Positions 52,734 through 55,628 of a DNA stretch of 64,000 bases are shown one piece after another (the first letter of the stretch is position 1; each line of letters starts with the position of its first letter). Source of the DNA: Sneathiella aquimaris (GTDB lineage: Bacteria > Pseudomonadota > Alphaproteobacteria > Sneathiellales > Sneathiellaceae). The stretch spans positions 3,665,501-3,729,500 of the forward strand of contig NZ_CP112881.1 in NCBI RefSeq assembly GCF_026409565.1, read 5' to 3'. A model generated the notes under the pieces. The model searched no databases and was not told the DNA's origin. It saw nothing but the letters and a program-made list of their open reading frames with translations. The translations under genes were made by a program, and so were the position numbers.

Positions 52734-52838
52734 GTTCTAATTGATGACAAAAATCTTGACAAAAGTACAGCCCTACCTTGCAACTGATCTTTGAAACACT
52801 ATACTCCGCGCGGGCTTTACTCAAACAAGAGAGACTTC

Positions 52839-53831
52839 ATGGCTGATTATAAATTTGATACCACCTGCATCGGAAATGCCATCGTGGACGTACTGGCGCG
52901 GATTGACGATGATTTTCTGACACAGGAGACCCTGGTCAAAAACTCTATGAATCTCATTGATGAAGCCCGGGCGGAAGACCTGTATGCTAAAATGGGAAGC
53001 GCGATTGAAATTTCAGGCGGCTCTGCAGGTAATACCGCCGCAGGTGTTGCCTCCCTCGGCGGAAAAAGCAACTATATCGGAAAAGTAAGAAATGATCAGT
53101 TAGGTGCCATTTTCGCCCATGACATTCAGGCAATGGGCGTCACATTTGAAACCGAACGCAGCACTGACGGCGCAGCAACAGCCAGAAGTTTTATTCTGGT
53201 TACACCGGACGCACACCGAACAATGAACACCTATTTAGGGGCCTGTGTCGAACTGGGTCCGGACGATATTAATCCTGCCATGATTGCGGCCTCTGAAGTG
53301 ACTTACATGGAAGGGTATCTTTGGGATCCGGACGGCGGTAAAGCCGCCTTCAGAAAAGCCGCCGAGATCGCCCATGAAGCCGACAAACGGGTTTCCCTGA
53401 CCTTGTCCGACAGCTTCTGCGTTGATCGGTTTCGCGGTGAATTCCAGACCTTTATCAAAGGGGGCGTCGATATCCTGTTTGCCAATGAGGATGAAATTAA
53501 ATCCTTGTATCAAACAGAAGACCTGTCCGATGCAATCGCCGCTGTGCGCGACACTGTTGAAATTGCCTGCATTACCCGAAGCAACAAAGGGTCCGTTATC
53601 ATTCAGGGCGACAACACATTAACCGTCGAAGCCGATACCAGTGTGGATGTGGTGGATACAACCGGGGCTGGCGACCTCTATGCCTCTGGTTTCCTTTATG
53701 GCTTTACGAACGGTTATAGCCTTGCCGACAGTGGCCGCATTGCGTCGCTTGCAGCCGCTGAAATCATCAGTCACATTGGTGCCCGCCCGGAAACCTCTTT
53801 GAAAGATCTGATTGCTCAGAAACTCTCGTAA
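52839..53831 (+). CDS. PfkB family kinase, probable adenosine kinase
   Basis: A 330-residue ribokinase-type sugar/nucleoside kinase. The N-terminal substrate-binding GGSAGNTAAGVASLGG and the C-terminal catalytic DTTGAGDLYASGF (Asp as base) are typical of PfkB; alphaproteobacterial orthologues are usually annotated as adenosine kinase. The ATG at 52839 follows AGAGAG; an upstream ATG adds 16 unsupported residues. The assignment to adenosine is by family resemblance only. The cyclase gene starts 81 bases downstream. Confidence 0.87.
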   Translation: MADYKFDTTCIGNAIVDVLARIDDDFLTQETLVKNSMNLIDEARAEDLYAKMGSAIEISGGSAGNTAAGVASLGGKSNYIGKVRNDQLGAIFAHDIQAMGVTFETERSTDGAATARSFILVTPDAHRTMNTYLGACVELGPDDINPAMIAASEVTYMEGYLWDPDGGKAAFRKAAEIAHEADKRVSLTLSDSFCVDRFRGEFQTFIKGGVDILFANEDEIKSLYQTEDLSDAIAAVRDTVEIACITRSNKGSVIIQGDNTLTVEADTSVDVVDTTGAGDLYASGFLYGFTNGYSLADSGRIASLAAAEIISHIGARPETSLKDLIAQKLS

Positions 53832-53912: not shown

Positions 53913-55628
53913 ATGACAGCAGAAAACGACCCGTCCATTGATATTGTTGACAAACACCGCTGGGTAAGGGCCAGTTCACTCCGATTATACAGTGGACTGG
54001 TGCTTATGGTGTTTTTATGCATGCACCTTATCAATCACTCATTGGGGCTTATCTCACTGGACGCTATGGAGGCCGGGCGTACCATCTTTGTCGCGGTCTG
54101 GCGCAATCCCTTTGGAACAGCCATTCTTTTGCTGGCAATGATGGTTCACGTGGTTCTGGTATTTGCAAAACTCCTCGCTCACCGTTCCTATAAACGCATT
54201 CCGGCAAAAGAGGTTCTGCAAATCACAATGGGGCTTGCCATTCCCCCACTCTTGGCCGGACATTTGATCGGCACCCGGATTTCTCACGAATTGATCGGCA
54301 TACATGACAGCTATGCCTATGTGTTGTTCAACCTTTGGATTGCCGCCCCGGAACAAGCCGCTATGCAAACCGCGGGCACCTTGGTCGCCTGGCTCCATGG
54401 ATGTCTGGGCCTGCATTTCTGGCTTCGCCTGAAACCCTGGTATGAAGACGCCTTTCCGTATCTCTATACGATTGCGATTATTCTACCGCTTCTGGCTTTG
54501 ACGGGTTTTGTAAACGGGGCAAACGAAGTTGAAACGCTTCTTAGGGATCCCATCTGGAAACAGAATTTCTTTGATGCCCTTGGCATAACCGATGCGAAAT
54601 ACCAATGGTATCTGCAAGTCCGGGAAGTGACCTATATTGTCATCGTTGTTCTTTTGATGACGTTGCTGCTCAGCCGTATTTTCTGGTTTATTTATTTCAG
54701 GCGGGAAACCCTGGTTTCGATTACCTATCCTGATGGACGCATCGTATCCGGAGCGCCGGGGTCAACAATTTTGGAAATCAGCCAGCTTGGCAATATTCCG
54801 CATGCGTCTGTTTGCGGCGGCCGTGGTCGCTGTTCGACCTGCCGGGTCCGGGTGATTTCGGGTGAAGATACCCTGCCGCCCCCCTCTGACAAAGAACTTG
54901 CTGTTCTGAAACGTGTTGGTGCAGCAGAGGGAACCCGCCTTGCCTGCCAGATTCAAGCGGTTTCCAATCTATCGGTCGCCCCCTTGCTACCAGCCAAGGC
55001 AACTGCCCGTCATTCTTTTTCTAGGCCGCGATATTTACAAGGGGAGGAGAAGGAAATCGCGATCCTGTTCGCAGACCTTCGATCCTTTACGAAATTTTCT
55101 GAACATAAACTCCCCTATGACGTGGTCTTTGTGATCAATCAGTATTTCCGTCATATGGGCGAAGCCATCGAACGATCCGGCGGACATCTGGATAAGTTTA
55201 TCGGCGACGGCGTGATGGCGTTATTTGGGTTGGAAGACAAACCGGATATCGCCGCCCGAAAAGCCCTAAGCGCGGCGAAAGAAATGGCCGTCGAACTTGA
55301 TCTGATGAACAAAAGCCTGAAATCTGATCTAAACGAACCTTTGCAGATTGGCATTGGCGTCCATATTGGATCTGTGATTGTTGGAGAAATGGGATATGGA
55401 AAAGCCACATCCATCACCGCTATCGGTGATGCGGTGAATACGGCCAGCCGCCTTGAAAACATGAATAAAGAATATGGCAGTCAGTTGATATTCTCAGAAA
55501 AAACGGCGCTCACAGCGGGTTTTGAGGGCAATTCGTCGCGCGAAAAAGTAATGATCCGGGGCCGAAACGAACCGCTGGGCATTCACATCATTAAAGACGC
55601 TATGACCCTGCAAATCGACAAAGGCTAA
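53913..55628 (+). CDS. cyaC: Adenylate cyclase with SDH-like membrane anchor and 2Fe-2S domain (CyaC-like)
   Basis: A 571-residue protein with three modules. Residues 25-260 hold six transmembrane segments with well-placed histidines (H38, H42, H79, H90, H117, H125, H131, H162, H168), resembling a succinate-dehydrogenase-type diheme anchor. Residues about 265-355 are a plant-type 2Fe-2S ferredoxin domain (CGGRGRCSTC gives C301, C307, C310, plus C345). Residues 378-560 are a class III cyclase with metal Asp388 and Asp432, adenine-type Lys428 and catalytic N509/R513 (AVNTASR). The layout matches CyaC of Sinorhizobium meliloti, which as I recall is redox- and quinone-responsive. Synthesis of cAMP tuned by the quinone pool is the likely role; heme binding is inferred. 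Confidence 0.9.
   Translation: MTAENDPSIDIVDKHRWVRASSLRLYSGLVLMVFLCMHLINHSLGLISLDAMEAGRTIFVAVWRNPFGTAILLLAMMVHVVLVFAKLLAHRSYKRIPAKEVLQITMGLAIPPLLAGHLIGTRISHELIGIHDSYAYVLFNLWIAAPEQAAMQTAGTLVAWLHGCLGLHFWLRLKPWYEDAFPYLYTIAIILPLLALTGFVNGANEVETLLRDPIWKQNFFDALGITDAKYQWYLQVREVTYIVIVVLLMTLLLSRIFWFIYFRRETLVSITYPDGRIVSGAPGSTILEISQLGNIPHASVCGGRGRCSTCRVRVISGEDTLPPPSDKELAVLKRVGAAEGTRLACQIQAVSNLSVAPLLPAKATARHSFSRPRYLQGEEKEIAILFADLRSFTKFSEHKLPYDVVFVINQYFRHMGEAIERSGGHLDKFIGDGVMALFGLEDKPDIAARKALSAAKEMAVELDLMNKSLKSDLNEPLQIGIGVHIGSVIVGEMGYGKATSITAIGDAVNTASRLENMNKEYGSQLIFSEKTALTAGFEGNSSREKVMIRGRNEPLGIHIIKDAMTLQIDKG

Follow-up and report, generated by a model that had tools for sequence, protein, structure and literature searches.

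A cyaC-type adenylate cyclase gene of Sneathiella aquimaris with a predicted diheme cytochrome b-like anchor and a 2Fe-2S ferredoxin domain

The best described counterpart of the protein discussed here is CyaC of Sinorhizobium meliloti, an adenylate cyclase with six transmembrane helices (6TM) that, according to the accessible part of PMC10463352, contains two heme B groups and a [2Fe-2S] cluster and is activated after oxidation by quinones. The same text credits the biochemistry of CyaC to Wissig et al. 2019 (Mol Microbiol) and names the CRP-like protein Clr and the TetR-like protein CycR as its partners. A family of such enzymes appears as cluster 1 of the 6TM cyclases in the accessible part of PMC4821796, where 30 sequences (e.g. 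R. palustris Q132R4) are described as having a cytochrome b-like 6TM anchor with four histidines, two predicted hemes, a ferredoxin domain and a cyclase domain that is assigned to class IIIb.

We encountered a gene with this arrangement in a 64,000-nucleotide stretch of the Sneathiella aquimaris genome (contig NZ_CP112881.1, positions 3,665,501 to 3,729,500), hereafter termed the window (Table 1). The reading frame opens with ATG at 53913 and runs for 571 residues free of internal stops, as judged from the ORF listing and the translation. Six long helices precede residue 265 in the full-length model (pLDDT 81.0, pTM 0.54), in agreement with the six membrane segments of the original prediction. 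The Fer2 and Guanylate_cyc matches both exceed the curated Pfam cut-offs and bear out two further features that had been read from the letters alone, namely a four-cysteine ferredoxin motif, whose residues are invariant in 80 aligned rows, and a class III cyclase in which the metal Asp pair (D388, D432) and Lys428 are present. CyaC itself, which the original prediction had named as a similar protein, does share all three modules: the protein annotated as CyaC in S. meliloti Ak57 (CP090106.1, L119) is identical to the window protein at 227 of 552 aligned positions (41%), and S. meliloti CyaC (SMc01818) has the same module order, the four histidines, the four cysteines, both metal Asp residues and the Lys and Thr of the presumed adenine site. 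When S. meliloti CyaC was searched against the S. aquimaris genome, the window ORF was the sole full-length match (CyaC residues 11-551, 442 bits) and the runner-up was confined to the cyclase domain (88 bits); the reverse search led to one place in the one S. meliloti record covered. The window gene is a member of the already published CyaC family. What is new here is a correction to the heme ligands, an adenosine kinase-cyaC gene pair in near relatives, flanks that lack a CycR-like gene, and a subgroup of relatives with a K428Q replacement. In a literature search with Sneathiella as a term, the genus was absent among the matches listed.

Table 1. Coordinates of the cyaC-type gene, its parts and the upstream kinase gene in the window
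Feature	Position	Strand	Evidence or remark
PfkB-family kinase, probable adenosine kinase	52791..53831	+	81 bp upstream of cyaC; Pfam PfkB
cyaC-type gene, 571 aa	53913..55628	+	ORF; 41% identity over 552 positions to S. meliloti CyaC
Membrane anchor of six helices (residues 20-264), the first five resembling the diheme cytochrome b fold	53970..54704	+	Model and fold search
H38 in helix 1, proposed ligand of the outer heme	54024..54026	+	H in 81/81 rows
H79 in helix 2, proposed ligand of the inner heme	54147..54149	+	H in 81/81 rows
H117 in helix 3, proposed ligand of the outer heme in place of H125	54261..54263	+	H in 81/81 rows
H162 in helix 4, proposed ligand of the inner heme	54396..54398	+	H in 81/81 rows; inside scan pattern
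2Fe-2S ferredoxin domain, residues 275-349, C301/C307/C310/C345	54735..54959	+	Pfam Fer2, E 1.7e-8; profile matches
Class III cyclase domain, residues 379-553, D388/K428/D432/T502/N509/R513	55047..55571	+	Pfam Guanylate_cyc, E 1.3e-19; 1wc1_B

A search of 60 genomes, that of S. aquimaris included, gave matches in 46 at E 1e-20, and a reading of the listed matches revealed copies with anchor, ferredoxin and cyclase in 31 of them: S. aquimaris itself, 20 of the 23 genomes from the same genus (one with a broken copy) and 10 of the remaining 36. The original prediction had proposed to look for this three-module layout in close relatives; the three same-genus genomes in which it is missing (G002, G010 and G016) are 91, 65 and 56% complete, respectively. 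The Sneathiella glossodoripedis copy is broken (L082:4944-6651, L033), appearing as a 200-residue ORF in L082 and as two pieces in G009, either through decay or through sequencing error. A contig scan built on a 29-row alignment (A1) returned at least 595 stretches, at least 566 of which encode a relative, and the best 80 were kept. Conservation is counted below over 81 rows, comprising the window protein and these best 80 of at least 566, or over 80 rows after removal of the frameshifted L082. Since the scan patterns (CGGRGRCST and WxHGC[LMI]G[LIV]H) include W160, H162, C301, C307 and C310, conservation at these positions is partly preselected, whereas H38, H79, H117 and C345 are free of this effect; the 60-genome and contig-scan sets overlap in some genes and so are not independent. 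Cluster 1 is described from alpha- and betaproteobacteria in the accessible part of PMC4821796, whereas the loci collected here also include some titled Rokubacteriota, Nitrospinota and Binatia.

The four proposed heme ligands are distributed one per helix over helices 1-4 of the model, and neither they nor the four cluster cysteines vary across the 80 aligned rows. The original prediction had put forward H79/H162 and H38/H125, or others, as the heme-ligating pairs. H38, H79 and H162 are invariant, but H125 is a histidine in just 35 of the 81 rows, as against all 81 for H117, and the H38/H125 pair is rejected on this ground. H42 and H168 fall outside the strict ligand set (H in 79/81 and 59/81 rows), and H42 may have some role. 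Within residues 1-266 only eight positions are invariant in 80 rows, namely G28, H38, H79, H117, W160, H162, G166 and G198, and because four of the eight are these histidines their conservation goes beyond chance. With the corresponding ligand pairs of fumarate reductase as a guide, H38/H117 would form an outer pair and H79/H162 an inner pair, given an N-terminus on the inside. The corrected set shows experimenters which residues to mutate.

Because structure searches with the entire protein were taken up by hits to cyclase domains, the anchor was modelled and searched separately. A model from 41 anchor sequences (alignment A2, drawn from 64 non-redundant rows) reached pLDDT 94.0 and pTM 0.89. 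Foldseek placed two fumarate reductase cytochrome subunits on top (E 0.85 and 1.5, probability 0.99 and 0.85), and VIA-align 2 aligned the anchor with the diheme cytochrome b of quinol:fumarate reductase (1qlb_C, Z 13.8, rmsd 3.4, 196 aligned; 5xmj_C, Z 13.6, rmsd 2.9, 177 aligned) and of succinate dehydrogenase (SDH; 9lay_C, Z 11.6, rmsd 3.5, 185 aligned), the next other fold following at Z 6.1. The fold in common comprises five helices: the alignments stop at or before model residue 209, covering helices 1-5 and leaving helix 6 outside. A Z near 13 is possible by chance for helical bundles, as the tool itself cautions, but the histidine pattern and the distance in Z from the following fold disfavour a chance match. 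A close FrdC relative (L148) also has one histidine per heme-binding helix (H46, H97, H147 and H185, by our own assignment). The SDH-like diheme type of anchor that had been predicted from the letters is thus supported by the modelled fold, and weakly by sequence. In contrast to the complex II cytochromes, the window protein possesses an extra sixth helix that leads into the Fer2 and cyclase domains, and genes for the flavoprotein and iron-sulfur subunits of complex II do not adjoin it (neighbouring ORFs, Pfam). The ordinary SDH cytochrome subunits of this genome are encoded elsewhere.

At the sequence level the ties between the anchor and complex II are weak. The 41-anchor profile had no match among PDB sequences up to E 10, and hhalign of the anchor with a FrdC that matches the W. 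succinogenes subunit gave a probability of 11 with 62 columns out of register. The Sdh_cyt family was recognised in 6 of the 41 anchors (best E 0.011; E 0.86 and 10.1 bits for the window's anchor, against a cut-off of 25.8) and sdhC_b558_fam in 12 of the 41 (best E 0.0011), with no match to the window's anchor at E 0.1. An orphan cytochrome b558-like membrane protein encoded in the same genome (G000:C1:982397-982846, L146:1492-2136) resembles the anchor profile (hhalign probability 94.7, E 6e-8) and also matches sdhC_b558_fam (E 2e-8, below the cut-off). When aligned to the anchor it has a glutamine where helix 2 would bear its histidine. This protein provides an indirect link in sequence between the anchor and diheme cytochrome b.

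The cysteines of the ferredoxin domain are spaced C301-x5-C307-x2-C310-x34-C345, which we take to be adrenodoxin-like, and the best PDB matches of the Fer2 profile are ferredoxins of the adrenodoxin, ISC and putidaredoxin types, with NqrF listed too; in the full-length model the cluster loop (residues 299-306) has a pLDDT below 50. The best NCBIfam match of helix 6 together with Fer2 is NqrF, whose score rises from 42.6 to 47.9 bits when the helix is included, against an equivalog cut-off of 295, and the other four listed families drop slightly on the same change. Among PDB sequences NqrF gains as well, from 39.0 to 44.1 bits, and several ferredoxins go up by 2-3 bits or are little changed. 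The N-terminus of NqrF likewise consists of a membrane helix that runs directly into a similar Fer2 domain, although NqrF differs from the window protein, which is without an FAD/NADH domain (Pfam). Helix 6 and Fer2 may accordingly be a module that resembles the start of NqrF, the gain of about 5 bits being a weak one.

The nearest structures to the cyclase domain are 1wc1 and its relatives (1wc1_B, Z 26.5, rmsd 1.9, 185 aligned). We take D388 and D432 to be the metal ligands, K428 and T502 to contact adenine, N509 and R513 to act on the transition state, and T502 to be in addition a mark of class IIIb. Of these six, D388, D432, T502 and R513 are the same in all 80 rows.

The explanation that we prefer, with a probability of about 0.85, is that the window gene is a cyaC orthologue encoding a quinone-set diheme/2Fe-2S adenylate cyclase. 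By analogy with the published homologue, the protein would contain two hemes and a [2Fe-2S] cluster and would be activated on oxidation by quinones. Two b hemes would be held between helices 1 and 3 (H38/H117, outer) and between helices 2 and 4 (H79/H162, inner), where they would exchange electrons with the ubiquinone pool, and their redox state would be relayed via helix 6, the 2Fe-2S domain and the linker to the cyclase, which would act as a homodimeric class III adenylate cyclase. An oxidised quinone pool would then raise cAMP, which would be read by a CRP-like protein. As originally proposed, the cell would adjust its cAMP synthesis to the quinone pool; family membership makes this the best inference, and S. 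aquimaris would on that basis behave as S. meliloti does. A quinone-responsive cAMP enzyme that has been characterised in one plant symbiont would thereby be extended to Alphaproteobacteria of the Sneathiella type, and the existence of at least 566 relatives suggests that enzymes of this kind, which would read the redox state of respiration, are common.

Other readings of the same architecture have to be weighed. The anchor and the ferredoxin could be mainly structural, a cytosolic signal such as bicarbonate setting the cyclase as in other class IIIb cyclases; the invariant T502, presumably diagnostic of that class, and the presence of the bicarbonate-studied cyclases 1wc5 and 1wc6 among the nearest structures would be compatible with this, but the histidines are the most conserved residues of the anchor and there would be no need for them in a passive anchor, and we regard such a role as very improbable. 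Heme-based gas sensors are common among signalling proteins, and it is conceivable that the hemes respond to O2, NO or CO instead of quinone, with ligand binding gating the cyclase. Four invariant histidines in four helices suggest, however, that both hemes are bis-His ligated and leave no site free, and the published homologue answers to quinones according to the accessible part of PMC10463352, which makes gas sensing quite unlikely here.

A further alternative assigns the ferredoxin a part in electron transfer, as the point where electrons enter or leave the protein on their way between the quinone pool and a donor in the cytosol, the cyclase reading the flow. The resemblance of helix 6 and Fer2 to NqrF, and its increase once the helix is added, point in this direction, but so small an increase may reflect hydrophobic composition, an FAD/NAD domain is absent (Pfam), and electron flow through a CyaC-type protein goes unmentioned in the accessible parts of PMC10463352 and PMC4821796; we consider this alternative doubtful. 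Equally speculative is a two-ended redox integrator, in which the five-helix diheme cytochrome b would read the quinone pool, helix 6 and Fer2 would form a separate NqrF-like module trading electrons with a donor in the cytosol, the cyclase would report the redox difference between cytosol and membrane, and the adenosine kinase would tie cAMP to adenylate recycling.

This kinase is encoded by the gene that precedes cyaC, and its best PDB matches are a sugar kinase (4e3a, 368 bits) and an adenosine kinase (3ubo, 365 bits), the next match scoring 70 bits. Searches with tblastn located it directly upstream on the same strand in 17 of 80 loci, separated from cyaC by 2-126 bp (the best 80 of at least 566, 75 of them reaching more than 1.2 kb upstream), and within the flanking DNA at each of the 20 loci from the same genus. 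The kinase-cyaC pair is kept near home and mostly missing further out, and a functional link between kinase and cyclase is only a guess. The neighbours that could be assigned are, besides the PfkB kinase, an amidase, a phosphoribosyl-ATP pyrophosphohydrolase, a CysZ-like protein and one protein without a Pfam family. Promoter-like sites are at the level of shuffled sequence (3 against a shuffle mean of 4.1), and terminator-like sites are no more than shuffles give (5 against a mean of 3.7).

The neighbourhood differs from that in S. meliloti, where the TetR gene for CycR accompanies cyaC according to the accessible part of PMC10463352, whereas in the window an adenosine kinase gene lies upstream and hisE downstream. 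In S. meliloti Ak57 (L119:6719-9470) two IS4 transposase genes are located between cyaC and a gene encoding a RutR-like TetR regulator. This regulator, which is taken to be CycR, was detected in the flanks of none of 80 relatives at E 1e-6 (best 80 of at least 566), and its best match in the S. aquimaris genome (44% identity) is far off at C1:1995229. The S. aquimaris genome encodes eight cNMP-binding domains. A phosphate-cassette-like R-[ST]-A motif is found in the cNMP region of two of these loci, L121 (FGELSAIDGKPRSA) and L122, with the R-S-A form in one CRP-like gene, and a cAMP receiver is plausible because of this CRP-like motif in the two loci.

A variation in the cyclase domain is observed at the position of K428, which is lysine in 71 of the 80 rows and glutamine in 9. 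The nine K428Q relatives (L086, L092, L093, L101, L106, L107, L112, L116 and L117), whose substrate preference may differ, all lie outside the Alphaproteobacteria by title (Betaproteobacteria, Rokubacteriota, Nitrospinota and Binatia), and five of them (L086, L092, L101, L107 and L112) combine K428Q with a histidine at the N509 position. L063 and L096 also have non-alphaproteobacterial titles, yet keep the lysine. The S. aquimaris genome (3.94 Mb in a single contig) contains 12 class III cyclase domains, of which one besides that of the cyaC-type gene lies about 10 kb downstream of this gene, outside the window (G000:C1:3731078-3731512).
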